Of a DNA stretch of 64,000 nucleotides, positions 3,027-31,164 are shown piece after piece. Each line of letters begins with the position of its first letter. Position 1 is the first letter of the stretch. Where the stretch lies: assembly GCA_009829735.1 (NCBI GenBank), contig CM020619.1, positions 936,590-1,000,589 on the forward strand. The letters run 5' to 3'. The DNA comes from Pyropia yezoensis (lineage: Eukaryota; Rhodophyta; Bangiophyceae; Bangiales; Bangiaceae). The notes beneath the pieces were generated by a model. That model did no database searches, was not told the origin of the DNA, and saw only the letters and a program-made list of their open reading frames with translations. A program made the translations under genes and the position numbers.

Positions 3027-3146
3027 CTTAGGTTTCTAAGTCAAATCAGACTTAGGTTTCTAAGTCGAACCAAGCTTAGGTAACTAAGTCGAACCAAGCT
3101 TAGGTAACTCAGTAGAGCTAAGCTTAGGTAACAAAGTAAAACCTGA
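3027..3146. repeat. Five tandem 24-bp palindromic repeats after A0 pol
   Basis: Units start at 3027, 3051, 3075, 3099 and 3123 with an exact 24-bp period. Each begins CTTAGGT and the first units contain the inverted pair CTTAG/CTAAG around a 4-nt loop, decaying in the last two. The array lies in the 502-nt gap between the pol stop and the end of the antisense ORF, where the two opposing transcripts would converge. A role as terminator, protein-binding array or RNA hairpin cluster is inference. Element B has no equivalent in its 111-nt gap. Confidence 0.85.
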
Positions 3147-3448
3147 ACCTTAATAAGTTAACTTAAAGGTAAAGGCTAACCTCGATAATATCGAAGTAAC
3201 TAGGGAGCTTACACGGGAGAATGACCTCCCCAAGCCAAGACACCAAGGGAGGGAGGATGACCTCCCCAAGCATGAACCTACCGGAAGAAGTTGGACGGGA
3301 GGCAAGGCACCACTGAGCCAGAAGGGGTACTCCCCAGGGCAGCAAACAGAGGCAAGCAATGCCCCCAAAGGGGATGAGTTTATACTCACTACTACCCGGC
3401 TACCATAAGGGTTGCCGGGGCCCTCTCCCGCACAAACAATAGCACTCC

Positions 3449-5896
3449 TCAGTGGGTAGACCCACTGCCCGAGGGAGGCCACTCACGCGTAAGCGCGTAG
3501 ACCTCCGTGCTCCACCGGTCGGCAACGTCACGACGGTCGACCACCCGAGTTACCTCGGTGCATAGCTGGACGAGGGTGCTGCGGCCAGCCTCCACGTCCT
3601 CCAGAGCTTTCTGGAGGCGGTCCAGCACGCCACCGAAGCAACGCGCTGACCCAACCAGCGCAGCACCTGGGGGGATATCCCCCCAGCTAACAGAGAGACC
3701 CCCACGCATTGCGCGGGTAACAAGGGCGTCAACGCCTTCATACCAGAGACGGGGACCCCCGTCATGTAGGACAGAGGCGGGAGGTGACACTGGCGCAGCC
3801 AGAGGAGCCACAGGAGCCGACACGGCTACCACCGGAGCCGGTGGCACCTGATACGAGGCCCGGTAGGACCCTACCGAAGGGGCTCCACCGTAACCACGGC
3901 GGTACTCCGCCCGACGACGGGACACCTCACGCTCCCCACCCACAGAGCCCCACTCTCGGGGACGACGGCCAACCGCCGCCGGCATCGGGTTACCGAACCA
4001 CGGAGCAAGGACCTGAAGAGGGTCATGGATAACCATGGGAATACCCAGGTCAGCAACAGCCTCGGTGGATGCCCACCCATGGCAACTAGGCTCATCCGGC
4101 TGAGTACGCCGGACACGCAACGAGTGACGAGGCAAAGGGGAAGCCCCAGCCTGCGGGTCCCGGTACGGGGGAAGGGCCAACACCCCAGCCCAGTTCACGG
4201 CATCGTGAACAGCCAGCAGGGCTTCGAACTCCCGGGCCAACCCGGTCTTGGCGGCTATCAGATCCACGCCCAACTGCGCGATGTGCCGACGGACACCCGT
4301 CGGGAGATGAAACAGACGACCCTGCCGGCGGACGGACAGCAAGAAGGATGAAGCCTGCCCGAGGGTAACCTCAAGGGTGAAGGTACCCTGCAACGGGTGG
4401 ACCGGTCGCGAGGCCAACACACTCCCGAAATAGCGAAGGCAGGAGCCGGTGTCAAACCGGAAAGCAGGGGCGGGTTCCCACCCCTCCTGCCATAGCGGCG
4501 GGCGCACGGGAGTGTATACCGGAGCACGACCGTTGCCGGTCTGCAACGCACACGTTATATCCGTGCGGAACGCATCCGCCATGACACCATGGTTACGTCG
4601 CCAACTCGACGCCGACTTCAACCCCGCCATGGGCGGGTAGGGAGCCGTCAACGACAGATACGGGGGTACCCCCGGGTAGTAGTCAAAGTCGGGATACCGA
4701 CCGGTACGGCTCACCGTCTCCCCAAACGCAACCGGCTCCGCCGCCGCCGCAATCCCCCGAGCACTAGCCGGGTAGTCAATCTCCCGCGGCAACGCGGGGG
4801 CAATCAAGTCGCAGACCCCGAAGTTGGGGTCGAGGTAGACCTCACCCCGTCCCACCCTGGTGCGCCAAAGCTGCGCATGCCGGTCGTCCGGCTGACTCAG
4901 GATCCAATGATGTTCCACCCGGACCGCGTTCGGCTGGTTGACCAGCCGCACCAACTCCCGCTCCCAGCTCGGGTCCACCTTAACGCGGCGGGAGGACTCT
5001 CCACGGGGATGCATCAGGTGGAAGTCCACCCGCATACGCCCATCGGACTCCATCGACTCTTGCACCGTGAGGCCTCGAACCCGAGCCACCAAGTCGGACA
5101 CCGACATGGCGGGTTGACCCGCCGCCACGGCGACGCCGCCACCCAACGGGGCAACCCGGGCAGGACCAGGAAGAATCGGGGGCGCCGGGGGACGCACCAC
5201 CGGCAGAGGGGCCGACGTCGGAGATGGACGAGGCCGAGGAGGAAGAAGAAGGGCGGGCGCCCGCCCGGAGTAACTCCCGGTGTCAACCGCCATGGGAGAA
5301 GGAGCGTCTTGACCGCTCGACGCCCGCGGCACCGCAGGTACGGCACCGGCGCCGGCACCACCCGTCGGCGTAGCCCCCGCCTCGGAAGGGGAAGGCACTT
5401 GGACAGCCTCCGGAGCCGGAGCCCCGGCCGTGCGGACACCCGCACCGTCTTGACCCACCGCACCGGGTGTCGCACCGCCACCACCACCCGCGTCAACGTC
5501 GGGACCGCCTCGAGGAGTCACCGCCCGGACACCCGGACCACCTTGACCAGCCGGAGTCGGCTGCGGGTCGCCACCTCCGCCGCAGGGCGGACCATCTTGA
5601 GGTAGCTGCGGTGAGCCGGCACCGGCACCAGGCTCCATCCGGGCAGCCGGCAGAGAGGGGGTAGAAGCCGCCACGCGCGGTTGACCGCCGGGTTGACCAC
5701 CGGCCGACGGCACCGTCGTGCCGCTGCACACGGACGACAGTCCCCCGGCCGACAGACGGACGGACACCGCAGGCTCGTCGTCGTCAGACGAGCTCACCCC
5801 GTAACGCGCGGCGTCGGGACCGACAGGCGCGTCGTCCTCCATCTCCTCCCCAATCAGGAGGTCTTCCTCCTCTTCAACCACCTGGGGATAGGACAT
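3449..5896 (-). CDS. Antisense accessory protein of element A0 (815 aa), unknown function
   Basis: This long ORF runs opposite to pol, between the pol stop and the 3' LTR. The ATG at 5896 is chosen because the open frame upstream of it has only a GTG start. The N-terminus is acidic (EEEEDLLIGEEMEDD), followed by a Pro/Gly/Ala-rich region to about residue 330 and then a more ordered C-terminal half. Residues 490-532 run from FGSV to an RxGRLFHLP motif. The antisense ORF of the unrelated-family elements A and B has the same block (FGSV to RRGMLWHLP) at matching relative order, so the two are homologous. I recognise no known domain, signal peptide or membrane segment. A structural or regulatory retroelement protein is possible but unproven. 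Confidence 0.75.
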   Translation of the reverse strand: MSYPQVVEEEEDLLIGEEMEDDAPVGPDAARYGVSSSDDDEPAVSVRLSAGGLSSVCSGTTVPSAGGQPGGQPRVAASTPSLPAARMEPGAGAGSPQLPQDGPPCGGGGDPQPTPAGQGGPGVRAVTPRGGPDVDAGGGGGATPGAVGQDGAGVRTAGAPAPEAVQVPSPSEAGATPTGGAGAGAVPAVPRASSGQDAPSPMAVDTGSYSGRAPALLLPPRPRPSPTSAPLPVVRPPAPPILPGPARVAPLGGGVAVAAGQPAMSVSDLVARVRGLTVQESMESDGRMRVDFHLMHPRGESSRRVKVDPSWERELVRLVNQPNAVRVEHHWILSQPDDRHAQLWRTRVGRGEVYLDPNFGVCDLIAPALPREIDYPASARGIAAAAEPVAFGETVSRTGRYPDFDYYPGVPPYLSLTAPYPPMAGLKSASSWRRNHGVMADAFRTDITCALQTGNGRAPVYTPVRPPLWQEGWEPAPAFRFDTGSCLRYFGSVLASRPVHPLQGTFTLEVTLGQASSFLLSVRRQGRLFHLPTGVRRHIAQLGVDLIAAKTGLAREFEALLAVHDAVNWAGVLALPPYRDPQAGASPLPRHSLRVRRTQPDEPSCHGWASTEAVADLGIPMVIHDPLQVLAPWFGNPMPAAVGRRPREWGSVGGEREVSRRRAEYRRGYGGAPSVGSYRASYQVPPAPVVAVSAPVAPLAAPVSPPASVLHDGGPRLWYEGVDALVTRAMRGGLSVSWGDIPPGAALVGSARCFGGVLDRLQKALEDVEAGRSTLVQLCTEVTRVVDRRDVADRWSTEVYALTREWPPSGSGSTH

Positions 5897-6471
5897 GATA
5901 ACGGGTGCGGAGTCCCCCGCGCCCACAAGCCGTCGACGGCTACGACCCGATACGGTGGGATAACCGGGACGAGCCAGGGAAGCGCGGGCACCCGCGCTTA
6001 TGACCACAAACGGCCACGAGAAGCGCCACAAACACGCGGTTCGACCCACGCCCCACGGGGCTACGAACGCGCTCCACCCAGGCACCTGGGCGGGACGGGG
6101 CCACCCCCACACACGGGGTAAGCAAGGGGGGTCACCCCCAACCGCCCCCACGCAACGCGGGCAGCCCCCGCCCCCCACTCAATCGTCCACACGAGAGGGG
6201 CCCCCCTACCACCAGGCACCTGGTGGCGGATCCGCTTGCACCACCCCTCGGAAAGGGGGGTCGTGAACAAAAACCCGCATCGGGAAATTAACGGTCCGGA
6301 AAACGGATCGTGTGTGTGTACCACACCAAGGGGGGCACCCCCCTCGGACAACCTCGAAAAGGGGTGTCTGTCGCGACGGGGCGCAAAGCCCCACACGACG
6401 GGTAAACAGTCACGCGACCCACTTACATTCGGTAACCCGAATGCAACTCGACCCGAGGACGGGCCGAATCT

Positions 6472-6481
6472 AAGGGGGGGA
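6472..6481 (+). other. Polypurine tract of element A0
   Basis: The purine run AAGGGGGGGA lies two bases before the 3' LTR, the expected position of the plus-strand primer of an LTR retrotransposon. It supports placing the LTR start at 6484. Confidence 0.7.
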
Positions 6482-6483
6482 TA

Positions 6484-6845
6484 CGTAGCAATATGGTTGT
6501 CCGTATTGTGACCCTAGTATCAGGGGGGCTACTTCTAACCCTTAACTTCAATTCGAGAGTCCGGACTGGTCACGGTATCTATAAGTTACGTATGACCAGA
6601 GGGACTTGCATCTTGGGGTGGAGGGTAGTTAGTAGTGTCTCCGAGGGTTTATAGCGAGGGGGCCGGTGGCGAATCCACCGCCGGCCAAGGTAGAACAACA
6701 AACCCCTCCCATTTGGGCTCCCATCTTGGTCCCTTGGCTTGCGCTCCAAGGACAGCAACCTTGGCCTCCCGGTGACGTTGGTGCCGATCCCCCTTGGTGA
6801 GTGTTCCCTGAGAGTGGACGTGCGACGGATTCCTATTGTGCTACA
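6484..6845 (+). repeat. 3' LTR of element A0 (362 bp)
   Basis: The ends form an inverted pair: CGTAGCAATA at the left and TATTGTGCTACA at the right, whose reverse complement is TGTAGCACAATA. The first base is C where T is expected. The left end follows a polypurine tract, and the right end coincides with the start of element A pol homology. The partner 5' LTR is outside the window, so the length rests on these end signals alone. Confidence 0.75.
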
Positions 6846-7163
6846 GGTCCGCACAGTAAACGGACAGGATGTGGTCAAAGTTGCACACCGCCTGCAGGAG
6901 ACCCAGCTTGGGCACGTGCGTTGGAGTCGTGGCGCCTCCCCTCACTGCCTGCGGCCAAACAGGGCCCACAGGAGTACGTGTTCGATAAGTTCATCGACCA
7001 CGGATGGGATGAAGACACTGACCGCCTCATGTTGAGGGTGCGTTGGTTTGGCTACAAAGCCAAGGACGATACATGGGAGTATGTGGAGGACCTTCCCGCT
7101 GAGAAGGTCCGGGCGTACTGTGCCCGGAATGAGGTAGACCCTAACAGCCCTCCCTCAACGTGA
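6846..7163 (+). pseudogene. pol: Pol C-terminal remnant of element A (chromodomain tail)
   Basis: The stretch corresponds to the last 106 codons of B pol, including the chromodomain from EYVFDKF to the PPST terminus. It is cut at its 5' end by insertion of A0. Relative to B it has one base missing near 6888 (GCACACC against GCACCACC), which breaks the frame before the chromodomain. It is therefore dead twice over: disconnected from the rest of pol and frameshifted. Confidence 0.88.
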
Positions 7164-7274
7164 GGGAAGGCCGAGCAACAGTGCCAAGAGAGTGCTTCAA
7201 GTCGAAGTGGTACGCAGAGTGGCTTTTAACTACAGCCCTAACCCTCACACTCTCACAACAAAGGCAGCTGCCAA

Positions 7275-9218
7275 CTAGGCACGCATGCTAGACTCTCCCA
7301 CTCCACGGCCCTCGCCCCCACGTGGAGGCGAGCGGCGAGACCCACGCCGATAACGGTCTCCACTTGTTGGAGGGGGCGGCGGCTCCAGGTCGGAACCGTC
7401 GCGTCCCTCACGGTCGCGCAAGTGGCGCCGACCGTGGCCACTCTTCTGCCTGGTCTTGCGCGCAAGTTTGCGACGCAGACGCTGGACAGACTCCGTCTCC
7501 GACGGGGTAGAGGACTCCGAAACGGAGTAAGACAACTCGTCTTCCGATACGGAAGGAGAGCGCCGCGAGTGTCGGCGACGACGGCGAGGAGGCGAGTATG
7601 CCCGGCTCGCGCGACGTTTGCCACGCCCAAGTGGGGCTGGCTGGGGCATAATAGCCCCAATGCGAGCCAACTCGGCTGTCATAAACTCCGCCACCGACTC
7701 GCAACTCGCGGTCGCCACTGCAGTACGAACGCGCTCCTCAAGTTGAGGAGTCTCGGAACTCTGTAGGGTTGCGGTCGACGCGGCCAACCAGGAAATGGTG
7801 CGCACCAACGTGGTGATCATCATCTCTGAGGTGAGAGGCGTGGGCGGCAACACCAACTTGGGGTATACCGTCAGGAGGGTGGCCCCCAAGTTGGGGGACA
7901 CCGGGGTGGAAGACTCCACGGCCACGCTGATCGGGATGTTCCCGTGAGGTTGGAAAGGAACAGGAGGAAGCGGAGGGGCCCGCCGAGGTGGCGGTACCCG
8001 GGTGTAACTGCGACCCCGACTTGGGGCCCCCGCAGTGGGTTGAGTCATATGGTCATCATAGGACGGCACGGCCATAACTATGGGCTTGTCCGGGGGTGGC
8101 GCAGTGTGGCGATCCACCCCCGGGGCATACGGGTAGTCCCCGATGCCCAACCCCTCTCGTAGGACCACACGGCCGTCGTGAAGTTCACGAGCGACCCACA
8201 CGAACTGGCGAAGTGCGCCATCGTCCTTGGGCCCACGAGTGGGGCGGCGCAACTTGTGCTCAATGCTCTCCCACTCGATAAACTTATGGATCCGGAGCAT
8301 CTCCTCAAGTAGAGTGAGTTGTCCTGATGAGCACCCCTCAGCAACTAGCTGAGGGGTGAGCTGTTCCAAACCTTGGAGGAGCCGGAGGGGGAGATGCCAG
8401 AGCATCCCCCGCCGCTGAACACAGGACACCCAGGTCGACATGACCTCGAGGAGCCACTGGGTGGCCAACATGGCCCACACCAGGTGATCAGGGGCAGCCG
8501 TCAACATGACGGAGCCGAAGTGGTCAAGCAACCGTGGCAACAACGCCGGGAACCCGTAGGGGACCTCAACTTGAGGCCACCACTCGGGCTTCTTCGGATA
8601 GTACTGCTCCCTCCTGGCAGCAGACTGTTGAGGAAACTCAAGTTGAGCCGAGGTCACCAAGTAGGGACCTCGCCGGAAGTCTTTCTTCATCCGCACATCA
8701 AAGTGATGAGTGTGCGGATCGGCCTCGTGGAGGTACGGTGGGCGAGTTGCCACAGCGTCCCACGTGAAGGTCGGCAAGTCGCCGGGACCCGGGATAGTTC
8801 CCCCGCGGTCCACCATGGCCTTGGCACGCTGAACGTCCTCAACCTCCTCATCGTCCAGGAAGGCAAACTGGTCCGTCCTGAAGCCGGCAGGGAACCCGAC
8901 CCTACGGGGATACTTCTCCCGTAGGCGGTCCCATACCCGGCCCATCGCTGCGCCAAGTCGGCCACAGCGAAGAACAGTCAGCCCCTCCTCATAGAGAGGC
9001 CAAGCGGGGTAAAACCACCGCCCCAAGGCCTCACGCGGGACAACTTGTCCCGCCTCCGGGGGAGACCCCGCCGTCAACCCAAAGCCGGGTGACGCGGGAG
9101 TCCCATCCCCCGGAGCGATCGCGGAGCCCCCGCTGAAAGTTCCGGCGGGTGCTGCACCGTAGGAGGTGTCCTCCATGCGCTCGTCAAGAGAGTCCGTCTC
9201 CACTCCCGGAGTCGCCAT
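7275..9218 (-). CDS. Antisense accessory protein of element A (647 aa), unknown function
   Basis: This ORF opposes pol, with its stop 111 nt beyond the pol stop and its ATG 338 nt before the LTR. The ATG at 9218 is preferred over an upstream in-frame TTG. The N-terminus is acidic and Ser/Thr-rich. A more ordered central part follows (residues about 50-320), with an FGSV to WHLP block at residues 234-277 shared with the A0 antisense protein. Then come a proline-rich linker and an Arg/Ser-rich tail (RRRRRHSRRSPS) resembling a nuclear or nucleic-acid-binding basic region. It is nearly identical to the copy in element B, so it has stayed intact although this element's pol is broken. No known family was recognised. 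Confidence 0.75.
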   Translation of the reverse strand: MATPGVETDSLDERMEDTSYGAAPAGTFSGGSAIAPGDGTPASPGFGLTAGSPPEAGQVVPREALGRWFYPAWPLYEEGLTVLRCGRLGAAMGRVWDRLREKYPRRVGFPAGFRTDQFAFLDDEEVEDVQRAKAMVDRGGTIPGPGDLPTFTWDAVATRPPYLHEADPHTHHFDVRMKKDFRRGPYLVTSAQLEFPQQSAARREQYYPKKPEWWPQVEVPYGFPALLPRLLDHFGSVMLTAAPDHLVWAMLATQWLLEVMSTWVSCVQRRGMLWHLPLRLLQGLEQLTPQLVAEGCSSGQLTLLEEMLRIHKFIEWESIEHKLRRPTRGPKDDGALRQFVWVARELHDGRVVLREGLGIGDYPYAPGVDRHTAPPPDKPIVMAVPSYDDHMTQPTAGAPSRGRSYTRVPPPRRAPPLPPVPFQPHGNIPISVAVESSTPVSPNLGATLLTVYPKLVLPPTPLTSEMMITTLVRTISWLAASTATLQSSETPQLEERVRTAVATASCESVAEFMTAELARIGAIMPQPAPLGRGKRRASRAYSPPRRRRRHSRRSPSVSEDELSYSVSESSTPSETESVQRLRRKLARKTRQKSGHGRRHLRDREGRDGSDLEPPPPPTSGDRYRRGSRRSPPRGGEGRGVGESSMRA

Positions 9219-9556
9219 GGCTCTCCCCAAGTTGGGGAGAGACGCTCTGGCTATCGCAGCACGAGACCCGCCTCGAGTTGAGGGGGACTCGGATCGTGGG
9301 TATACGGGTGGCCTCCCCAGCGTGGGGCGGCCCAGTGGAAGGTGAAGGGGAGGTGGTGGTGATGGTGAAGTGTGAACTGAGGAGAGCAAGCTGCCGAGTG
9401 GGCAAGCTTGGGGAGAGGGGCGGTCAACGTGACCGCCTCCACATCCGCGTTACGTACTCGCTGGGGGACAGCAAGTCGCGCCCCCAACGCCGAGACGTGC
9501 GTTTACGCACCCCCTCACAGGGCCGACCGGGTCGGTCGGAACTGAGGAGAGGGGAA

Positions 9557-10025
9557 CGTGGCAGTATTGACCCCCATGTAGGGGGGCAACACGTGCCATG
9601 CAAGGGGCGGCAGGCCACTAGCCTGATCCGTTCCTCCCCCTGCATTTGGGTCCATATTCCCTAAGTTTGGGATAGTTAGCTTAGTAGTAAATCCAACTTG
9701 GATTTGAGGGTTTTCTGCATTTATCGTCTTGAATTTTCGTGTGGCCCGGTGGGCAGGTGCTGGGGTGGGAGATTCTGAGTGGCGAGATTCTGAGTGGACC
9801 CTGGGGGGATAAGGGGAGGGACAGCGGGGCTTGGCCCTGCGTCCCCGTCCCGACCAAGAAACTGTTGGACCACACACCATCCTCTTGTTTGTCCGTGGGG
9901 GGTTTGCCCCACAACAGGGACAGAGTGCGTGCGACTTGCACTTCTTCCGGTTCCCCCGACACGGGAGGCAGCCCTAGCACACCGCCCCAACTTGGGTGCC
10001 GTGTGTGCTTGTGGTTTTTGCCACA
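9557..10025 (+). repeat. LTR1 (469 bp): 3' LTR of A and 5' LTR of B
   Basis: The boundaries are set by comparison with the LTR at 54516, whose ends are fixed by a target duplication. The ends are [C]GTGGCAG and TTTTGCCACA, an inverted pair, with C replacing the first T. It differs from LTR2 at 4 of 469 positions by my reading and from LTR3 at 6. A polypurine tract precedes it and a primer binding site follows it, as expected for an LTR serving both roles. Confidence 0.92.
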
Positions 10026-10027
10026 TT

Positions 10028-10043
10028 TGGTGGAGCAGCAGGG
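10028..10043 (+). other. Primer binding site of element B
   Basis: TGGTGGAGCAGCAGGG begins two bases after the LTR. It starts with TGG, complementary to the CCA end of a tRNA. It is not the usual plant initiator-Met type (TGGTATCAGAG). The same sequence follows LTR3. I cannot name the tRNA without the host tRNA set. Confidence 0.7.
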
Positions 10044-10144
10044 GACAGAGGTAAACTTTACCTCCGGGTGCACCCGGGTGTAGGGGGCCCTCTGTCTCAG
10101 AGGAACGGTGGTCTTGGACCGTGTCATACGGATCGTCAGCCAAC

Positions 10145-12091
10145 ATGGCTAGCTCGGACCCCCCGTCGTCCGGGGAGTACACGGGTGACGCACGTTCTTC
10201 AGTGCCTTTGAATACTGGTGAGACACAGGTCGGTTTACCTGGGGTCGCAGAGGGACTAGAGGTCCCTCAAGCCAGCAGGACTGGAAGTACGGGCGGGCAA
10301 CAGGCCACCCCGACTCAGTCGGGAGTTCACTCGGGTGACACTTCTGATGTGGGTGGGCCGAAGTCTGGCCACCGCGTGGTATACTCAACGGGAACGTCCC
10401 AAGGGGTGAGGACTGTCCCCGCGGGTTCCACTCGGGTTGGAGCCAACTTTGGCATGGAGCCGTCGCCAACTAGGCTTTCGGAGGACGGTGGACCTCCGTT
10501 GGTCGGCGATGGGCTCGCGCCCATGCCCCCGGTTGAGACCCCTGAGGAACGTGGTTACCCCTCAGGTGGACTCCCGGAGGCGGACCGAGACTCAACTGGA
10601 GTCGTCAATCCACTCCTCGCGGAAACTGTTCGTCGGGAGGCGACCAATGTGTTGCGGCAGACTTTGCCGGACCTGGTGGTCACGATGACGAATACTATTT
10701 TGAATCAGATTGTGGCGAGTTTGCCAGATGGCCTTAATGTCCAGACCGGATTGGGGCTTTCGAGCCCGCAGGCGCAGGGGGAATCCCCCCTTACGCCTAT
10801 CTCTGGTCGCCCCGAACTGGGGGCGACACCTGTGACTCCCAACGTGGGAGCCACACCATACTCGGTGGGGCGTACGCCCTTCACGGGGGAGTTCCCCCCG
10901 GAAACGCCGGCGGCTACACCAAGCGCGCCGCGCCGGACTACAGGCACTGAGAGTGAACTTACCCCAGTGCCACAGCGGCTGTTCCCTCAACGTGAGGTGC
11001 CGCCCAAGATCCAGGTAGCCAACCCGGTCTACCAGAGGATCTTTGACTGTGAGACCTACGCCCTCCACAATAAGTCGGTGGCGTATGGTCCTGACCAGGC
11101 CCGAGCCATGGGCCGTGCCAAGAAGAATGCACTTCATTCTTTTGGGCACAAAGCGGAGTGGGACGGAACTCCCCCCCTCCGTGTCTTTGAGTTCCTACGT
11201 CGGTTCACAAAAGCCTGTGACGACAATGCCATAAGTGAAGGCATGGCTTTTTACATGCTACAAAAGTTTACGAAGGGCGACCTACGGACAGAACTTATGT
11301 CCGTCATGCCCAGCTCCTCAAGTGGAGGCGCTGGGGAGGTGACGTCCTATTTGGAGCTCGTCAACTGGTTGTTGAGAGCCATGGTTGATGAGGCAGCGTT
11401 GGCTTCTCAAGTCGAGGAGTTTACGCAAGCCCATCAGGAAGAGGCGGAGGACGAGTTGTCCTTTGCGGAGCGAGTCCGTAAGCTCAACAATCTTTGTGGG
11501 TTTCTTCATCCACAAGCTGTGGTGAAGAGTCGGTTTGTGGAGGGACTCCATTGGTCAGTCCGGATGGAGACCCGGGAGCATACCACTGCCCGGGCGACCC
11601 TGGCCGAGTTGGCCAGGTTCGCCTATCGCAGAGGCGAGGCCTACCGCAAGTTGCGGGAGGAACAACGCCAGGAGCGTCAGGCCGAGTTGCCCAAGGAACG
11701 CGAGGAGGCGCGCCAGGCCAGAGAGTTGAGAGAGGCACGCCGAATCCGCAAGGAGAGGGTGGTAGCTGCCGTGGGAACTTCCCAGGGTATCCCTTCGTCT
11801 TCCCCAGTTGGGAAGACCCCTCCCGGACCGGACCATCGGTGTTGGAACTGCAACTCCGATGGTCACTGGGCATATGATTGCCCCAAGTTGAGTAAACGCA
11901 TCCAACAACTTGTTAGGAATGCGAGTAAAAAGTCGGCTACGAACGAAGTACGTTCACGCCGCGAGGGTGGGTCTCGACCGGTCGTTGCGGTCGCCACACC
12001 CTCGGCGGAGGAGGCGGACACGTCGTCCTCGGACTCGTCGTCTTCCTCCCCGCCCTCAGATTCGGACGCCAAGTCGGCGGGAAACGAATGA
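10145..12091 (+). CDS. gag: Gag protein of element B (648 aa)
   Basis: Gag forms the particle that packages element RNA. The first ATG after the leader (10145) is used; the frame extends a little upstream only through a GTG. Residues 1-280 are Ser/Pro/Gly/Thr-rich and probably disordered. About 290-480 is a helix-rich capsid-like region, followed by a highly charged Arg/Glu stretch. A CCHC zinc knuckle (C566-x2-C569-x4-H574-x4-C579, core CWNCNSDGHW) binds RNA in known Gags. A Ser/Asp-rich tail ends the protein. The stop overlaps the pol ATG in the tetranucleotide ATGA. Confidence 0.93.
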   Translation: MASSDPPSSGEYTGDARSSVPLNTGETQVGLPGVAEGLEVPQASRTGSTGGQQATPTQSGVHSGDTSDVGGPKSGHRVVYSTGTSQGVRTVPAGSTRVGANFGMEPSPTRLSEDGGPPLVGDGLAPMPPVETPEERGYPSGGLPEADRDSTGVVNPLLAETVRREATNVLRQTLPDLVVTMTNTILNQIVASLPDGLNVQTGLGLSSPQAQGESPLTPISGRPELGATPVTPNVGATPYSVGRTPFTGEFPPETPAATPSAPRRTTGTESELTPVPQRLFPQREVPPKIQVANPVYQRIFDCETYALHNKSVAYGPDQARAMGRAKKNALHSFGHKAEWDGTPPLRVFEFLRRFTKACDDNAISEGMAFYMLQKFTKGDLRTELMSVMPSSSSGGAGEVTSYLELVNWLLRAMVDEAALASQVEEFTQAHQEEAEDELSFAERVRKLNNLCGFLHPQAVVKSRFVEGLHWSVRMETREHTTARATLAELARFAYRRGEAYRKLREEQRQERQAELPKEREEARQARELREARRIRKERVVAAVGTSQGIPSSSPVGKTPPGPDHRCWNCNSDGHWAYDCPKLSKRIQQLVRNASKKSATNEVRSRREGGSRPVVAVATPSAEEADTSSSDSSSSSPPSDSDAKSAGNE

Positions 12092-15000
12092 CCGTTGGGG
12101 CTGGTCGTCCGAAGCTCACAACGGCAGCCTCGGCCAAGTGGGCCAGGAGGGCGAACCAACCGTGCCGGATACTGCGGCGACCTAAGGGAGTCCGCCCACC
12201 TCGGGTAGGACTCCCCAAGAACGTAAACCCACGTCGGGTCATCGCGGTGCTGACGGGTGAGAACTTCCAGGTGGCTGGACGGGTGCAACTTGCCCCCGGC
12301 CGTGCATGCTGTACCCGTATCGTACTTGATACCGGGTCAGGAGCCTCCTTGATACGCAAGTCGCTATTACCAAAGGAGGTGAAGCTCCAACGCTGGAGGT
12401 CCAAAGCTGACCATATGATTGACATCAATGGTGGGGTACTTCCCATCGTTGGTGCCGTGACCCTACCAACTAGGTTGGGGACCCATGAGGTCGACGTGAC
12501 CTATGGCGTAGTTGAGAATATGTCGGTACCCCTGCTTCTGGGTACCCCTTATGTTGTTACACAAGTGCCTTTGATTTGTGGCCCTGAGTACTGGGTCAAG
12601 TTGATGAATGGGGAGACTATCCCCATCCTTGGTAAGGGAAAGTCTGTGGCTCCTGTGACAGTCCCACAGTCGAAGCCTGTTTGCTCTGTGAGGGAAGGGT
12701 TTACTGCTACCCTTCGTTTAGCCCGCAAAGTCACGTTGTCCCCCAACTCGGTGGTGCACGTTGATGTTGTAACTGATTTTACGGGGAACGGGTTGGTGCA
12801 CCCTCACCCCCGTCTTGCTCGCAAGCACCAAGTGCATGTTGCCCTTGGCACGATGGACTCCAAAGCCGGAGTCCCGTGGAGGATCCAGGTGATGAACCTG
12901 AGCCCGACGCCCAAGTACTTCAAGTCGGGAGCCAAGTTCGGCTATATCGACCAACACGAGGGACCGGTAGTAGCGGTCACCCTCAACGCGGGCGCAAGTA
13001 GCGACCCGAAGTCCGGAAAGGAGAAGCATCAAACCAAGTCGGCCGCCTCTCCTCGACCCCATGTGAACATGGAGGGTGTCCCCCCCAGGTTGAGGGTTCA
13101 AGTTGAACGCCTCTTGGACCAATATGACAAGCTGTGGGATGGTCAATTGGGACTCATGAGAGCCACCCAACACCGGATCGAGTTGAAGCCCGGTGCACCC
13201 CCTATACACCAACAACCGTATAGGGGAGGACCTCGTTCAAGGGCCCACGTTAAGGAGCAAGTTGCTCGCATGGAGGCCCTCGATGTGATCGAGGCCAGCA
13301 ACGCCGAGTGGGCGAGTCCGGTGGTTATCGTCCCCAAAGTTGATGGGACCCCCCGGTTTTGTATCGACTACCGTAAGCTCAACGAGAGCACGGTGAAGGA
13401 TAGTCATCCCCTACCTAGGATGGATGACTGTCTGGACTCTCTGGGGGAGGCAAACGTGTTCTCTACCCTGGACTGTAACGCGGGGTACTGGCAAATTCCC
13501 ATTGCCCCGGAGGACAGGCATAAAACTACCTTTACCTGTCACTGTGGTACCTACCAGTGCAAGCGCCTACCGTTTGGTCTGTGTAACGCGCCGGCAACTT
13601 TCCAGCGCGCTATGGACATGATTCTGGCCGGAGTACGGTGGCAGATCTGTCTTGTGTACCTAGACGATATCATTGTGTTCTCCCGAAGTCCGGAGGAACA
13701 CATTGGCCATCTTGGCCAGGTGTTCAAGCTACTTGCTGACGCCGGTGTGCCACTGAAGGCAAGTAAGTGCCACCTCTTCACTCAAGAGGTGGAGTACTTG
13801 GGACATGTTGTCCGCCCGGGGCGTCTCAGTGTCAACGAGAAGAACTTGAGGGCCATTCGTAAGGCTCAGTACCCCCGGACCCAGACCCAGATGAGGAGCT
13901 TCCTCGGGATGTGTAACGTGTACCGACGTTTCACCAAGGGCTTCGCCAAGGTGGCGAAGCCGTTGAATGAGCTAGTGAGCTCAACGCTACCGAAGAACCT
14001 GCCTCCCCCAAGTCGGGTGGAGCAGGAATCCTTTGAGACTTTTCGGGACCTTCTGCTGAAGCCCCCTATCTTGGCTATTCCCAGGTTGGGAGGCCACTAC
14101 ATCCTGGATGTGGACGCTAGCTACGACCAACTTGGTTGTGTGTTGCTTCAGCAGCAGCCGGACAAGGAGTACTTTCCGGTGGGATACTTTAGTAAGGGGC
14201 TGAACTCGGCCGAGAAGAACTACGGAGTCACCGAGTTGGAAGGACTCGCAGTGGTGTGGGCGGTGACGTCACTTCGTCACTACCTGGAGGGTGAGAAGTT
14301 CCTCATCCGCTGTGACCACCGCGCGTTGCAGTTCATCTTTAAGACGGACTGTACGAACACTCGTCTCAACCGATGGAGGGTGCGACTGGCACCCTTCAAC
14401 TTTGACATTGAGTACCGACCTGGCAGGCAACATGCCCTTGCCGACGGCCTCTCTCGGGTACCTACCGAGGGGCTGGACACTAACCCAGTCGATGAGGACA
14501 TCCCCATCGTGGGGGTAGTCACGCGCTCGGGTCAGGCGTTGAACCCCGAGGCGCCAGGGAACAAGAAGTACTTGCCCCTGTCCCTGGACGAGGTAGTGAA
14601 GGCCCAGGCCGAGGATCCCTTCTGCAAGTCGCAGAGGGATATACTGGATACGGTGGTTGAGACGCGCTTCTTTCTGGGAGACGATGGCCTCCTCATGAGG
14701 AGGGGGGTATTCCAGGGGACCGAACAACTTGTCGTCCCCGCATCCCTTAAGGACAGTATCCTTGAGAGGGAGCACAACGCTCCCACGGGTGGACACCTGG
14801 GGTCTAGTAAACTGTACCAGACCCTGAGGACCAGGTACTACTGGCCGTCCATGGTGGTGGACATCTACAGTTGGGTGGCTGCCTGCACAAGTTGTGCACA
14901 GAATCGTCTGATGGAACGGCGGCCTAGTACGGCTATGCTATTGTTCCCGGCCAAGGAGCCCTTCGCCGCGTTGGCGATGGACATCCTTGGGCCACTGCCC

Positions 15001-16071
15001 GTGACCGAGGAGGGCAACCAGTACCTCCTGGTCATCTGTGACCGCTTCACGAAACTTACGCGAGCGATCCCACTGGCAGAGATCACGGCCATGTCGGTCG
15101 TGTCAGCCTTCCTAGATCACTGGGTTGCCGCGTATGGCATCCCAGATAGTACACTATCGGACAATGGACCGCAATTTGCGTCTGTACTGTTTCAGGGAGT
15201 GCTGGATATGTTGGGGGTTAAGGCAAACTATGCCACCCCCTACCACCCACAAACTAATGGGCAGGTGGAGCGCTTCAACAAAACTATTGTTAGGCAGCTG
15301 CGCCACTATGTGAGTGAGCACGTGAGAACGTGGGACCAATACATTTCTGTTCTTACCACTGCCTACAATTCGCAGGTTCACTCATCTACCGGGGAAGTAC
15401 CCCTCGCTTTTGTGACCCCCCGTCGCGTGCGGTCTATTGCCGTGCGGCGGCCGCTCCCAACTAGGGAGGATGGTGGCAGGACGCCTACTCCTACTGAGAG
15501 TAAGGCGGAGTTCGCTGCTAGGCTTGAAAACCTCATCCCTAAAGTCAGGGCTGAGATGGACAAAGCACAAAAGCGCTACAAGCGTACCTTTGACAAGAAG
15601 GTCCGCAATGCTAAGCACGTCCCCGAGCGGGGTGACTGGGTACTGGTTCACTCACACACCCCAGCTGGGGGTAAGTTGGTATTCCAGACGAAGGGACCGT
15701 ACCAGGTCCTTCGTACTGATGGGCGGCGCTTCACCATCGAAAGTGACGATGGGGTCCGCACAGTGAACGGACAGGACGTGGTCAAAGTTGCACCACCGCC
15801 TGCAGGAGACCCAGCTTGGGCGCGTGCGTTGGAATCGTGGCGCCTCCCCTCACTGCCTGCGGCCAAACAGGGCCCACAGGAGTACGTGTTCGATAAGTTC
15901 ATCGACCACGGATGGGATGAAGACACTGACCGCCTCATGTTGAGGGTGCGTTGGTTTGGCTACAAAGCCAAGGACGATACATGGGAGTATGTGGAGGACC
16001 TTCCCGCTGAGAAGGTCCGGGCGTACTGTGCCCGGAATGAGGTAGACCCTAACAGCCCTCCCTCAACGTGA
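12088..16071 (+). CDS. pol: Pol polyprotein of element B (1327 aa): protease, RT, RNase H, integrase, chromodomain
   Basis: The aspartic protease motif LDTGSG has D81. The reverse transcriptase has YLDD at residues 524-527. RNase H acidic motifs are in LDVDA, TELEG and RCDHR. The integrase has an HHCC finger and the D965/D1025/E1061 triad with the canonical 35-residue spacing (MDILGP, SDNGPQ, GQVERFN). A GPY/F motif (KGPYQ) precedes a chromodomain at about 1265-1315 with aromatic residues in VRWFGY and DDTWEY. All catalytic residues are present. Pol is in the -1 frame relative to gag and starts at an ATG overlapping the gag stop. Expression may be by termination-reinitiation or frameshifting. 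Confidence 0.96.
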   Translation: MTVGAGRPKLTTAASAKWARRANQPCRILRRPKGVRPPRVGLPKNVNPRRVIAVLTGENFQVAGRVQLAPGRACCTRIVLDTGSGASLIRKSLLPKEVKLQRWRSKADHMIDINGGVLPIVGAVTLPTRLGTHEVDVTYGVVENMSVPLLLGTPYVVTQVPLICGPEYWVKLMNGETIPILGKGKSVAPVTVPQSKPVCSVREGFTATLRLARKVTLSPNSVVHVDVVTDFTGNGLVHPHPRLARKHQVHVALGTMDSKAGVPWRIQVMNLSPTPKYFKSGAKFGYIDQHEGPVVAVTLNAGASSDPKSGKEKHQTKSAASPRPHVNMEGVPPRLRVQVERLLDQYDKLWDGQLGLMRATQHRIELKPGAPPIHQQPYRGGPRSRAHVKEQVARMEALDVIEASNAEWASPVVIVPKVDGTPRFCIDYRKLNESTVKDSHPLPRMDDCLDSLGEANVFSTLDCNAGYWQIPIAPEDRHKTTFTCHCGTYQCKRLPFGLCNAPATFQRAMDMILAGVRWQICLVYLDDIIVFSRSPEEHIGHLGQVFKLLADAGVPLKASKCHLFTQEVEYLGHVVRPGRLSVNEKNLRAIRKAQYPRTQTQMRSFLGMCNVYRRFTKGFAKVAKPLNELVSSTLPKNLPPPSRVEQESFETFRDLLLKPPILAIPRLGGHYILDVDASYDQLGCVLLQQQPDKEYFPVGYFSKGLNSAEKNYGVTELEGLAVVWAVTSLRHYLEGEKFLIRCDHRALQFIFKTDCTNTRLNRWRVRLAPFNFDIEYRPGRQHALADGLSRVPTEGLDTNPVDEDIPIVGVVTRSGQALNPEAPGNKKYLPLSLDEVVKAQAEDPFCKSQRDILDTVVETRFFLGDDGLLMRRGVFQGTEQLVVPASLKDSILEREHNAPTGGHLGSSKLYQTLRTRYYWPSMVVDIYSWVAACTSCAQNRLMERRPSTAMLLFPAKEPFAALAMDILGPLPVTEEGNQYLLVICDRFTKLTRAIPLAEITAMSVVSAFLDHWVAAYGIPDSTLSDNGPQFASVLFQGVLDMLGVKANYATPYHPQTNGQVERFNKTIVRQLRHYVSEHVRTWDQYISVLTTAYNSQVHSSTGEVPLAFVTPRRVRSIAVRRPLPTREDGGRTPTPTESKAEFAARLENLIPKVRAEMDKAQKRYKRTFDKKVRNAKHVPERGDWVLVHSHTPAGGKLVFQTKGPYQVLRTDGRRFTIESDDGVRTVNGQDVVKVAPPPAGDPAWARALESWRLPSLPAAKQGPQEYVFDKFIDHGWDEDTDRLMLRVRWFGYKAKDDTWEYVEDLPAEKVRAYCARNEVDPNSPPST

Positions 16072-16182
16072 GGGAAGGCCGAGCAACAGTGCCAAGAGAG
16101 TGCTTCAAGTCGAAGTGGTACGCAGAGTGGCTTTTAACTACAGCCCTAACCCTCACACTCTCACAACAAAGGCAGCTGCCAA

Positions 16183-18126
16183 CTAGGCACGCATGCTAGA
16201 CTCTCCCACTCCACGGCCCTCGCCCCCACGTGGAGGCGAGCGGCGAGACCCACGCCGATAACGGTCTCCACTTGTTGGAGGGGGCGGCGGCTCCAGGTCG
16301 GAACCGTCGCGTCCCTCACGGTCGCGCAAGTGGCGCCGACCGTGGCCACTCTTCTGCCTGGTCTTGCGCGCAAGTTTGCGACGCAGACGCTGGACAGACT
16401 CCGTCTCCGACGGGGTAGAGGACTCCGAAACGGAGTAAGACAACTCGTCTTCCGATACGGAAGGAGAGCGCCGCGAGTGTCGGCGACGACGGCGAGGAGG
16501 CGAGTATGCCCGGCTCGCGCGACGTTTGCCACGCCCAAGTGGGGCTGGCTGGGGCATAATAGCCCCAATGCGAGCCAACTCGGCTGTCATAAACTCCGCC
16601 ACCGACTCGCAACTCGCGGTCGCCACTGCAGTACGAACGCGCTCCTCAAGTTGAGGAGTCTCGGAACTCTGTAGGGTTGCGGTCGACGCGGCCAACCAGG
16701 AAATGGTGCGCACCAACGTGGTGATCATCATCTCTGAGGTAAGAGGCGTGGGCGGCAACACCAACTTGGGGTATACCGTCAGGAGGGTGGCCCCCAAGTT
16801 GGGGGACACCGGGGTGGAAGACTCCACGGCCACGCTGATCGGGATGTTCCCGTGAGGTTGGAAAGGAACAGGAGGAAGCGGAGGGGCCCGCCGAGGTGGC
16901 GGTACCCGGGTGTAACTGCGACCCCGACTTGGGGCCCCCGCAGTGGGTTGAGTCATATGGTCATCATAGGACGGCACGGCCATAACTATGGGCTTGTCCG
17001 GGGGTGGCGCAGTGTGGCGATCCACCCCCGGGGCATACGGGTAGTCCCCGATGCCCAACCCCTCTCGTAGGACCACACGGCCGTCGTGAAGTTCACGAGC
17101 GACCCACACGAACTGGCGAAGTGCGCCATCGTCCTTGGGCCCACGAGTGGGGCGGCGCAACTTGTGCTCAATGCTCTCCCACTCGATAAACTTATGGATC
17201 CGGAGCATCTCCTCAAGTAGAGTGAGTTGTCCTGATGAGCACCCCTCAGCAACTAGCTGAGGGGTGAGCTGTTCCAAACCTTGGAGGAGCCGGAGGGGGA
17301 GATGCCAGAGCATCCCCCGCCGCTGAACACAGGACACCCAGGTCGACATGACCTCGAGGAGCCACTGGGTGGCCAACATGGCCCACACCAGGTGATCAGG
17401 GGCAGCCGTCAACATGACGGAGCCGAAGTGGTCAAGCAACCGTGGCAACAACGCCGGGAACCCGTAGGGGACCTCAACTTGAGGCCACCACTCGGGCTTC
17501 TTCGGATAGTACTGCTCCCTCCTGGCAGCAGACTGTTGAGGAAACTCAAGTTGAGCCGAGGTCACCAAGTAGGGACCTCGCCGGAAGTCTTTCTTCATCC
17601 GCACATCAAAGTGATGAGTGTGCGGATCGGCCTCGTGGAGGTACGGTGGGCGAGTTGCCACAGCGTCCCACGTGAAGGTCGGCAAGTCGCCGGGACCCGG
17701 GATAGTTCCCCCGCGGTCCACCATGGCCTTGGCACGCTGAACGTCCTCAACCTCCTCATCGTCCAGGAAGGCAAACTGGTCCGTCCTGAAGCCGGCAGGG
17801 AACCCGACCCTACGGGGATACTTCTCCCGTAGGCGGTCCCATACCCGGCCCATCGCTGCGCCAAGTCGGCCACAGCGAAGAACAGTCAGCCCCTCCTCAT
17901 AGAGAGGCCAAGCGGGGTAAAACCACCGCCCCAAGGCCTCACGCGGGACAACTTGTCCCGCCTCCGGGGGAGACCCCGCCGTCAACCCAAAGCCGGGTGA
18001 CGCGGGAGTCCCGTCCCCCGGAGCGATCGCGGAGCCCCCGCCGGAAGTCCCGGCGGGTGCTGCCCCGTAGGAGGTGTCCTCCATGCGCTCGTCAAGAGAG
18101 TCCGTCTCCACTCCCGGAGTCGCCAT
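16183..18126 (-). CDS. Antisense accessory protein of element B (647 aa), unknown function
   Basis: This is the intact copy in the complete element. Its stop lies 111 nt beyond the pol stop in convergent orientation, and its ATG lies 338 nt before the 3' LTR. It differs from the element A copy by only a few residues (GTSGGGS against GTFSGGS near the N-terminus). Its layout is acidic N-terminus, central ordered part with the FGSV to WHLP block at 234-277, Pro-rich linker, and Arg/Ser-rich basic tail with SVSEDELSYS. The longest plus-strand frame here is 183 codons. Transcription would need an antisense promoter in or near the 3' LTR. The function is unknown; candidates such as env-like, silencing-suppressor or integration-cofactor roles are speculative. 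Confidence 0.78.
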   Translation of the reverse strand: MATPGVETDSLDERMEDTSYGAAPAGTSGGGSAIAPGDGTPASPGFGLTAGSPPEAGQVVPREALGRWFYPAWPLYEEGLTVLRCGRLGAAMGRVWDRLREKYPRRVGFPAGFRTDQFAFLDDEEVEDVQRAKAMVDRGGTIPGPGDLPTFTWDAVATRPPYLHEADPHTHHFDVRMKKDFRRGPYLVTSAQLEFPQQSAARREQYYPKKPEWWPQVEVPYGFPALLPRLLDHFGSVMLTAAPDHLVWAMLATQWLLEVMSTWVSCVQRRGMLWHLPLRLLQGLEQLTPQLVAEGCSSGQLTLLEEMLRIHKFIEWESIEHKLRRPTRGPKDDGALRQFVWVARELHDGRVVLREGLGIGDYPYAPGVDRHTAPPPDKPIVMAVPSYDDHMTQPTAGAPSRGRSYTRVPPPRRAPPLPPVPFQPHGNIPISVAVESSTPVSPNLGATLLTVYPKLVLPPTPLTSEMMITTLVRTISWLAASTATLQSSETPQLEERVRTAVATASCESVAEFMTAELARIGAIMPQPAPLGRGKRRASRAYSPPRRRRRHSRRSPSVSEDELSYSVSESSTPSETESVQRLRRKLARKTRQKSGHGRRHLRDREGRDGSDLEPPPPPTSGDRYRRGSRRSPPRGGEGRGVGESSMRA

Positions 18127-18451
18127 GGCTCTCCCCAAGTTGGGGAGAGACGCTCTGGCTATCGCAGCACGAGACCCGCCTCGAGTTGAGGGGGACTCGG
18201 ATCGTGGGTATACGGGTGGCCTCCCCAGCGTGGGGCGGCCCAGTGGAAGGTGAAGGGGAGGTGGTGGTGATGGTGAAGTGTGAACTGAGGAGAGCAAGCT
18301 GCCGAGTGGGCAAGCTTGGGGAGAGGGGCGGTCAACGTGACCGCCTCCACATCCGCGTTACGTACTCGCTGGGGGACAGCAAGTCGCGCCCCCAACGCCG
18401 AGACGTGCGTTTACGCACCCCCTCACAGGGCGGACCGGGTCGGTCGGAACT

Positions 18452-18461
18452 GAGGAGAGGG
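18452..18461 (+). other. Polypurine tract of element B
   Basis: The run GAGGAGAGGG lies three bases before LTR2, where plus-strand synthesis is primed. The corresponding site in element A lies just before LTR1. Confidence 0.72.
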
Positions 18462-18464
18462 TAG

Positions 18465-18933
18465 TGTGGCAGTATTGACCCTCAGGTAGGGGGGCAACAC
18501 GTGCCATGCAAGGGGCGGCAGGCCACTAGCCTGATCCGTTCCTCCCCCTGCATTTGGGTCCATATTCCCTAAGTTTGGGATAGTTAGCTTAGTAGTAAAT
18601 CCAACTTGGATTTGAGGGTTTTCTGCATTTATCGTCTTGAATTTTCGTGTGGCCCGGTGGGCAGGTGCTGGGGTGGGAGATTCTGAGTGGCGAGATTCTG
18701 AGTGGACCCTGGGGGGATAAGGGGAGGGACAGCGGGGCTTGGCCCTGCGTCCCCGTCCCGACCAAGAAACTGTTGGACCACACACCATCCTCTTGTTTGT
18801 CCGTGGGGGGTTTGCCCCACAACAGGGACAGAGTGTGTGCGACTTGCACTTCTTCCGGTTCCCCCGACACGGGAGGCAGCCCTAGCACACCGCCCCAACT
18901 TGGGTGCCGTGTGTGCTTGTGGTTTTTGCCACA
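18465..18933 (+). repeat. LTR2 (469 bp), 3' LTR of element B
   Basis: It starts TGTGGCAG and ends TTGCCACA, a terminal inverted pair with the standard TG...CA ends. It is 4 substitutions from LTR1 and 4 from LTR3. Similarity to the other copies stops exactly at 18933, after which unrelated, less GC-rich sequence begins. Confidence 0.94.
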
Positions 18934-29704: not shown

Positions 29705-31164
29705 CGCACCCACCGTACAACGCGTGTGGTGGGGATGGGCGTGCGTGGGTAGGCGGCGGCGACGGCGGCGGCGGCGACGGCGGCAGTGACGGCTATGACG
29801 GCGTGTGCGGCGGGGCGGATTGGCGGGGGGGTGGGGGTGGGGCAGGGATAGCAGGGACGGGGGCGCCAAGAGGGGATTGGAGGGGGGGGGCGGCTGGAGA
29901 GCGCCGCCCACAGTGGGAGCGCCGCGGTGCTCGGAGGCGTCCTTCCAGGGGCGGCCGTGGTTCAAAAAACGAAATTTCTGTCCGTATCTCTTTTTGTGTG
30001 GCACTTTTCGGCTGTGGCTGGGGCTGCTGCCAGTCGGCGTCGTTGCGTTGCGCCAGGCCGCTGTAAACGTGCGAGCGTGTCTATTACCTTTTCAGAGTTT
30101 TTTCATCCTCGTCTTGCGCGAGGCTACTGCTGCTGGCGGCCTTAAAACCGCGGCGGCAGAGGGTGTGTGACGAAGCGGCGGGGCGGACATGCGTGTGCCG
30201 GTGGAGCCCACCCACTGCTGTCATGGCAGGTTGCACGCGCAGCACATAGTGGTGATGGTGGTGGCGGCGGCGCGTGCCGCGCGGCTGCGGATCGCCTGTG
30301 GGGTCGTTTTCATGCCCGCAGCCGACCCCGTGGGCTCTCGCGGTCGCATAGGCGAGAAGCCCTCGTCACCGGCCACCTCACCGGCCGTCGCAGCGGCTCC
30401 ATGCTTTGGTCGAGTGCCGTTGCCGTCGCGGCCGCGCCGCGGGCGGTGCACTTCCTCCACAGGGGAGAGGGGGGGGGCGTGCCAGCGGAACGGTGCCCGC
30501 TGCCAACGCGCCGACCGCCTGTGTGTGGAGGGGTTGTGGGCAGCGAGCAGCGACGTCCGCCCCCCCAGCTCCTGCCCCTACCGCCTGCATCGCGGTGCCA
30601 GAGTACACACAAAAAAAAAAAAGAACCCCCCCGGCATACAACCCGGCTACACGGCCACACCCGGCCGCCCACACTCGCCACACAACAAAAAGAACAAGCA
30701 ACCACCATCCCACACCCACGTCCGACACGAGCCACCCCGCCTCCGTCCACCCCTGCGCTCACTCGCGCGGCTCCGCGGTGCGACACCACCCAGCCGTCCC
30801 CCCGGCCGCGCGGCAGCGCACGTGCACCACCGCGCTGGCCGCAGGGGTCTCCAACGACCGCGGGTCACACCGCCTTCCTCACCAACCGGGACCGAGTCAA
30901 CAGCCCACAAGCAGGATCCTGGTCCCCACCGCACGGTTCCGCCGTCCGACCGACAGCAACACAGCCGTCAGACCCCACGACGCTCCGTCGGCCCGCCCGT
31001 TGTTCACCCGTTTCCGCCCGCCCGCCAATCCCGGTCACCGCGCACCCCCAACCCCGCGTCCACCGCGCGTTCAAGGCGGGCACACCTTGACCGCAGGGCG
31101 CCGCCGCAGACCACTCATATAGGCTCGCGCAGATGCTGACCGCTCGCCCCGAACCCCCCCCCCA
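29705..31164. other. Intergenic, no gene seen
   Basis: Upstream of DXS the sequence is GGC/GCG-trinucleotide-rich, then mixed, with a stretch rich in C and A from 30600. Plus-strand frames are open to 316 codons but contain only Pro/Arg/Ala-rich sequence without any ordered motif. It includes the promoter side of DXS and the 3' flank of the Rab gene. Confidence 0.45.

Follow-up and report, generated by a model that had tools for sequence, protein, structure and literature searches.

A 64,000-nucleotide stretch of the genome of the red alga Pyropia yezoensis (GenBank assembly GCA_009829735.1, contig CM020619.1, positions 936,590 to 1,000,589 of the forward strand), called the window below and numbered from its first base, contains Gypsy-type long terminal repeat (LTR) retrotransposons of two diverged families, A and B, which carry a gene on the strand opposite to gag and pol. 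This antisense frame lies between pol and the 3′ LTR, and in both families it is a genuine coding gene maintained by purifying selection. In the A family, represented in the window by the element A0, most of this gene, conserved core included, is exchanged as a block between element lineages, the rest of the element remaining unmoved. A0 carries the version referred to as type 1; the other is type 2. We consider it rather probable (roughly 0.62) that this is a protein-coding accessory gene of the elements, with a putative promoter in or next to the 3′ LTR. The antisense genes and the stretches discussed with them are as follows.

3449..5896, minus strand: A0 antisense gene, 815 amino acids, between pol (end 2946) and the 3′ LTR, convergent with pol
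7275..9218, minus strand: B antisense gene, left copy, 647 amino acids
16183..18126, minus strand: B antisense gene, right copy, 647 amino acids, between pol (end 16071) and the 3′ LTR, convergent with pol
3413..5235: A0 type-1 cassette, replaced relative to type 2, covering antisense residues ~222–815 and 36 bp past the stop
16207..18466: B stretch in which the window copy and copy U are more diverged at synonymous sites, from the antisense gene up to the LTR start

Sequence comparison indicates that the A0 and B antisense proteins are homologous in their core, the similarity being weak elsewhere; the left and right B proteins differ in two residues. A preliminary description of the window had reported long open reading frames (ORFs; 815 and 647 codons) in this convergent position, which the coordinates confirm, and an ordered common block. 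The block begins with FGSV at residue 490 in A0 and 234 in B and ends with RQGRLFHLP (524–532) and RRGMLWHLP (269–277), respectively; the similarity extends beyond it, the BLASTP alignment covering 230 residues at 25% identity (E = 2e-11, single comparison). Among the 591 window ORFs of at least 60 residues, the A0 query finds the B copies at E 2.2e-9 and 2.3e-9, and the next match has E = 2.5. Four A-lineage queries (A0, the type-2 locus L044, L041 and the Pyropia vietnamensis protein P0005) each match both B copies in this set (E 2e-9 to 5e-6), their best match outside these antisense genes being at E 0.43. The controls comprised 801 sequences, namely 800 shuffles of B and B reversed. With A0, 481 of them align, the best at 29.3 bits, against 53.5 bits for B; over the four queries, 473–487 align per query at no more than 31.6 bits, against 42.0–53.5 bits for B. 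The same homology is recovered by tblastn with five A-family loci (E 4e-8 to 2e-7) and by a core-only hidden Markov model (HMM), which detects both B copies at E 4e-6. In agreement with these, a profile–profile comparison supports the common block at a moderate probability of 88% (E 2.8e-6; alignment diversity very low). The earlier claim that the frames are homologous, not open by chance, therefore stands, B scoring above all 801 controls.

Variation among copies follows the codons of the antisense frame. In A0 and 34 distinct copies, 217 variants are distributed over codon positions 1, 2 and 3 as 58/45/114; the ratio of nonsynonymous to synonymous variants (N/S) is 0.42 of the composition-matched expectation, and one stop is present where 6.0 are expected. 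Seven copies picked by DNA identity alone contain 75 variants (22/18/35), with N/S of 0.54 and no stops against 2.0 expected. The pol tail, serving as positive control, gives an N/S of 0.42 overall and 0.09 in the DNA-picked set. Among the five other frames, the bias reappears, at 0.51, in sense frame 1, which has its third positions in common with the antisense frame, and the remaining four lie at 1.38–2.00. Mean divergence of copies from A0 is 1.3% in the antisense gene, 1.5% in the pol tail and 3.8% in the gap between pol and the gene; in 11 copies, indel lengths are multiples of three in five of seven cases inside the frame and in six of 19 outside. An internal stop is absent from 51 of the 55 best-scoring A0 matches, and the B core matches are open in all 116 best-scoring copies.

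The third-position excess begins at the ATG of A0 when A0 is compared with type-2 copies, six loci behaving alike: for L043, differences at positions 1/2/3 number 13/9/9 upstream, 14/13/26 in residues 1–220 and 136/95/245 in the cassette. A longer A0 protein starting upstream of this ATG is unsupported, there being no codon bias in that region in the six loci. The whole-gene ratio of nonsynonymous to synonymous divergence (dN/dS) is 0.30–0.32 for A0 against L041, L043 and L044, with dS near saturation for L041. The B window copy and copy U differ by 152 changes (30/20/102) with a dN/dS of 0.149, though U now has three stops. The overall range of about 0.15–0.32 comes from these four comparisons; in L042 and L045 the first 104–260 residues are out of frame, which makes the whole-gene values of these two loci unreliable. 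Purifying selection thus extends to other copies, which the preliminary description had set as a condition.

High G+C content might open frames on the reverse strand by chance, and the window does contain 84 ORFs of at least 200 residues across all frames. For the antisense genes we give this explanation practically no weight: it is refuted by homology between families whose pol sequences are 34–41% identical (B pol against the pol ends of six A-family loci), by the dN/dS values and by relatives in another species. Alternatively, the antisense RNA, not the protein, could matter, forming double-stranded or small interfering RNA with the sense transcript; non-coding antisense regulation is discussed for such elements (PMC7264820). 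As a sole explanation this is improbable and is contradicted by the codon-position pattern and the mostly frame-keeping indels, which show selection on the protein, an additional RNA role being possible.

The type-2 antisense gene occurs in eight loci (L042–L045 and L047–L050), which were compared with A0 and other type-1 copies; identities by region, trees and McDonald–Kreitman counts involved five of 36 type-1 copies, A0 included. A0 and type 2 are 89–93% identical in pol, 92–94% in the pol–gene gap, 89–92% in antisense residues 1–220 and 94–97% in the LTR where present (L042 has lost its LTR side), and only 73–74% in the cassette. L043 is 94–98% identical to the seven remaining type-2 loci in the cassette and 92–95% in pol. 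The change is abrupt, identity between A0 and type 2 falling from 95–98% to ~68–70% between adjacent 150-bp windows. The maximum chi-square method places the left switch at 3413, 36 bp past the stop codon, in all four type-2 loci tested, and the right switch at 5235, inside the gene, in three of the four; in L042 the right switch point, 6173, arises because homology is lost at that place and does not mark the border of the cassette.

Synonymous divergence and trees give the same picture. Between A0 and six of the eight type-2 loci (L042 and L047 left aside), synonymous differences per site amount to 0.195–0.265 in pol and 0.465–0.486 in the cassette (Fisher p 4e-8 to 1e-12), with 0.124–0.175 in residues 1–220. 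All seven pairs of type-2 loci tested show the reverse, pol being more diverged than the cassette. In trees built without L047 (partial pol), with L041 as outgroup only and those parts of its backbone that could not be aligned masked, the stem branches between the two types add up to 0.36 in the cassette and to 0.045 in the backbone. A type-2 clade is not rejected by the backbone (approximately unbiased test, p 0.437); what argues for exchange is therefore branch length together with synonymous divergence, and not tree topology. Taken together, the identity, switch-point, synonymous and tree data show that one type has a cassette acquired from a more remote lineage than its remaining sequence.

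Two loci were left out of the type-2 comparison. L046 is an A0-type copy with an internal rearrangement, a stretch near the 5′ part of the antisense gene being inverted. In L051, whose pol region is not alignable, the cassette is 84% identical to L043 and the LTR 87% like that of A0; no pol match was found in the stretch examined, and this locus possibly has another backbone.

The B family points in the same direction as the A cassette exchange, less strongly and depending on the pair compared. Synonymous divergence of the window copy is 0.053 in pol and 0.203 in the gene against U (p 1.7e-12), 0.113 and 0.199 against L052 (p 2e-4), and 0.119 and 0.177 against L053 (p 0.011); three B pairs that do not involve the window copy show no pol/gene synonymous difference. 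Between the window copy and U, maximum chi-square finds a switch at 16207, 24 bp inside the 3′ end of the gene, and weakly one at 18466, the LTR start. L054, which has a pol deletion, was excluded from this test: in this B-type locus the antisense gene and LTR are intact, and pol residues 655–745 directly adjoin 1063–1327. Three stretches of the B antisense gene (17201–17253, 17113–17169 and 17773–17824) are invariant in DNA among six aligned B sequences despite synonymous divergence of up to 0.2 between some copies; with only six sequences this may be accidental, or it may reflect an additional constraint.

The weaker, pair-dependent B effect and the type-2 clade not rejected by the backbone tree would also suit faster local mutation or relaxed selection in the cassette, with no exchange. 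This is very improbable, since the cassette exceeds pol in synonymous divergence between A0 and all six type-2 loci tested, yet falls below it in every within-type-2 pair tested, and since identity drops so sharply between neighbouring windows.

The cassette types differ in abundance. With 26-base marker words matched at up to one mismatch, 681 marked copies were counted for type 1, 41 for type 2 and 1038 for B, reversed words giving 0 for each type. Words were selected that do not vary among 36 type-1 copies (A0 included), eight type-2 loci and six B copies; the counts are of words, not of intact elements, and would fall short for a type with more variation. The difference between type 1 and type 2 is about seventeen-fold. 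This provides a natural experiment: similar elements differ most in the version of the antisense gene and in marked copies, which makes the role of the gene testable by comparing types. One can speculate that the antisense gene serves as an interchangeable module of specificity, whereby elements would escape a sequence- or protein-specific brake by taking a cassette from another lineage and keeping the rest, so that the abundant type-1 cassette would mark an escape followed by a burst. Candidate brakes might be small RNAs arising from the overlap of sense and antisense transcripts, or self-encoded copy-number control by the antisense protein. We regard this scenario as unlikely.

Several results weigh against the accessory-gene reading. 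Copies picked by protein score lean to low N/S; three of six aligned B copies have 1–3 stops in the gene, as do, with 1–2 stops, three of five diverged A-family loci; and the window B copy against the nearly identical L054 gives a dN/dS of 1.0 on very few changes. A McDonald–Kreitman-type test between cassette types (5 type-1 and 8 type-2 copies) shows no sign of positive selection (p 0.53–0.61), which is thus unsupported between the types. With a full-length HMM, the B stop-to-stop frame is absent among the matches listed (down to 1.0 bits), and the ATG-started B protein reaches only 11.8 bits, the best shuffle scoring 6.5. Similarity is weak outside residues 361–572 of A0 and 95–319 of B, and B does not have the long N-terminal region of A0; hence a single common function is not established. 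No Pfam family reaches its cut-off for either antisense protein and no PDB chain matches, and the AlphaFold model of A0 is useless for fold (mean predicted local distance difference test score 31, predicted template modelling score 0.22).

The copies with stops would also be expected of a captured host or viral gene carried as a passenger and useless to the element, and acquisition from outside is plausible. Such a passenger would decay throughout, whereas purifying selection is seen in both families, each with hundreds of marked copies; moreover, the A0 query finds no relatives in viral contigs in a scan sensitive to close relatives only. We therefore hold this explanation to be improbable as well.

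According to the accessory-gene reading, which we prefer, a putative antisense RNA would start near the 3′ LTR and be translated into the accessory protein; selection on the gene and its presence in two families imply that the elements benefit from it. The protein may be nuclear and control how its element is expressed, silenced or integrated, a role of the kind suggested for the Grande gene23 and Retand TRP28 proteins. This guess, to which we assign slightly less than even odds, follows an analogy with the Grande gene23 protein, which is nuclear, and TRP28, for which DNA binding is predicted (PMC7264820, PMC11963269), together with two compositional leads: residues 1–60 of A0 are 25% Asp/Glu, an acidic N-terminus found in A0, P0003 and P0004, and the last 117 residues of B form an arginine-rich tail with 28% Lys/Arg. 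Instead of a nuclear regulator, the protein could be a structural or particle-associated cofactor (a Gag partner, Env-like or movement-like), as env-like genes of other elements sit between pol and the 3′ LTR (PMC7264820). This is unlikely, given that the antisense orientation excludes an origin from genomic RNA or its splice products, that neither Gag nor Env families are matched in Pfam, and that the B tail is so basic.

Three protein searches, each scoring the 8000 candidates with the most words in common, returned 17 related proteins. Seven are hypothetical proteins of Pyropia vietnamensis (MMPV_001347 and six more), known as proteins and not in genomic context. The family thus suggests that some of the hypothetical proteins annotated in that species are genes of this kind. 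P0003 has 315 of 331 residues in common with A0 in the core and 140 of 219 in the N-terminal part. Type 2 is nearer to a P. vietnamensis protein (58–61% identity) than most type-1 matches are (54–55%). The P. vietnamensis models P0004, P0008 and P0016 have a break or skipped segment approximately between RTD and VSAFLL, probably reflecting predicted introns or broken copies.

The remaining features of the elements in the window are listed below, negative positions lying upstream of it.

About −3998 to 6845: A0 element, Gypsy-type, with 361-bp LTRs
−3998..−3638: A0 5′ LTR, 98.3% identical to the A0 3′ LTR
−3424..−1232: A0 gag frame, upstream of the window
−1325..2943 (frame; in-window part 94..2946), plus strand: A0 pol with reverse transcriptase (RT), RNase H and integrase
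3027..3137: 4.6 tandem copies of a 24-bp unit, in the gap from A0 pol to the antisense gene
6485..6845, plus strand: A0 3′ LTR, 361 bp
6846..10026, plus strand: left B remainder beyond the A0 insertion, comprising the pol end, the antisense gene and the middle LTR
9564..10026, plus strand: B middle LTR, limits as aligned (the full LTR is a few terminal bases longer), common to left and right B
10027–18934: right B element
10145..12091, plus strand: B gag, 648 amino acids, CCHC zinc knuckle (Pfam zf-CCHC, 2.1e-5)
12088..16071, plus strand: B pol, 1327 amino acids, with RT, RNase H, integrase and a weak chromodomain (Pfam)
18472..18934, plus strand: B right 3′ LTR, repeat as aligned; the terminal TGTGGCA starts at ~18465

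A0 interrupts pol of the left B element and is flanked by a duplicated 5-bp sequence, GGTCC. Spanning −10192 to 18934, the two B elements stand in tandem with one common LTR; around this array no clear target duplication was seen by eye. The middle LTR differs from the right LTR at 3 of 463 positions and from the left 5′ LTR by ~6%. Because positions 6846–10026 and 15753–18934 are 99.4% identical, a 3.18-kb LTR containing the antisense gene was considered and rejected, as the upstream DNA is A0 nested in B pol and the middle LTR is common to two B elements. For the same reasons, the earlier remark that the B copies are intact where pol is broken holds in that both 647-residue frames are open, but tells little: left B pol is interrupted by the A0 insertion. 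Between copies, the 24-bp repeat differs in its number of complete units (24- and 48-bp indels).

The families differ, as initially described, in LTR length (361 bp against about 470 bp in B) and in their diverged pol. The pol order RT – RNase H – integrase of Ty3/Gypsy elements is present in Pfam matches, which for A0 are RVT_1 (1.8e-36), RT_RNaseH, Integrase_H2C2 and rve. The chromovirus label given earlier is less secure: Chromo (PF00385) matches B at E 0.001 and 19.4 bits, under the cut-off of 25.1, and has no Pfam match in A0. The first 20 bases after the 5′ LTR are the same in both families and are likely a primer-binding site. A convergent antisense gene is also present in the A-family loci L041–L045, with an LTR beyond it in L041 and L043–L045. 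An Rfam scan of the window gave nothing at gathering thresholds. Further along lie a host gene for 1-deoxy-D-xylulose-5-phosphate synthase (27435–29720, minus strand; Pfam 4e-104) and a ferric reductase/NADPH-oxidase-like gene (40658–44059, plus strand; FAD_binding_8, NAD_binding_6 and Ferric_reduct).

Antisense proteins of the HBZ kind in retroviruses contain a bZIP domain. HBZ of human T-cell leukemia virus and other retroviral antisense genes resemble A0 and B in their orientation and are transcribed from an antisense promoter within the 3′ LTR, a feature that in A0 and B is putative; in the Pfam scan neither antisense protein has a bZIP match or another accepted one. The A family can further be likened to yeast Ty1, as a lead and not as evidence: the canonical and Ty1′ subfamilies have reconstructed Gag proteins 79% identical and Pol over 90% identical (PMC10951436), that is, similar pol and one strongly diverged gene. 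In Ty1 this gene is the sense-strand gag, Gag-derived proteins acting as restriction factors (PMC10951436); in the A family it is an antisense accessory gene, for which restriction would be conjectural.

The closest parallels are additional antisense ORFs between pol and the 3′ LTR in maize Grande, rice RIRE2, Silene Retand, Phaseolus PvRetro13 and fungal Boty (PMC7264820, PMC11963269); LTR retrotransposons have long been known to carry such antisense accessory genes, to which no role has been assigned (PMC7264820). The preliminary description had considered this kind of protein undescribed, which does not hold for the architecture and apparently does for the protein family and its occurrence in red algae. 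The plant aORF-3R genes (Grande gene23, RIRE2, Retand ORF4/TRP28 and PvRetro13 ORF2) are, like those of A0 and B, kept in many copies and homologous between families, and the tandem arrays that many Retand elements have in the same region are reminiscent of the 24-bp repeat of A0. In contrast, the A0 and B proteins have no Transposase_28 (PF04195, absent in a Pfam scan at E 0.1) or SMC match, and their host is a red alga; Retand is a non-chromovirus, and cassette exchange is absent from the aORF-3R descriptions in the excerpts consulted. Boty of Botrytis cinerea and Sclerotinia has the same architecture in a non-plant host and is likened by architecture, not by protein. No report of antisense retrotransposon ORFs in red algae was found in the open-access literature, most subscription papers lying outside that scope, and within it the protein family, its red-algal occurrence and the cassette exchange appear new. 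Compared with the plant and fungal systems, A0 and B thus combine the same architecture with an unrelated-looking protein family, in abundant element families of red algae and under selection visible at the codon level.

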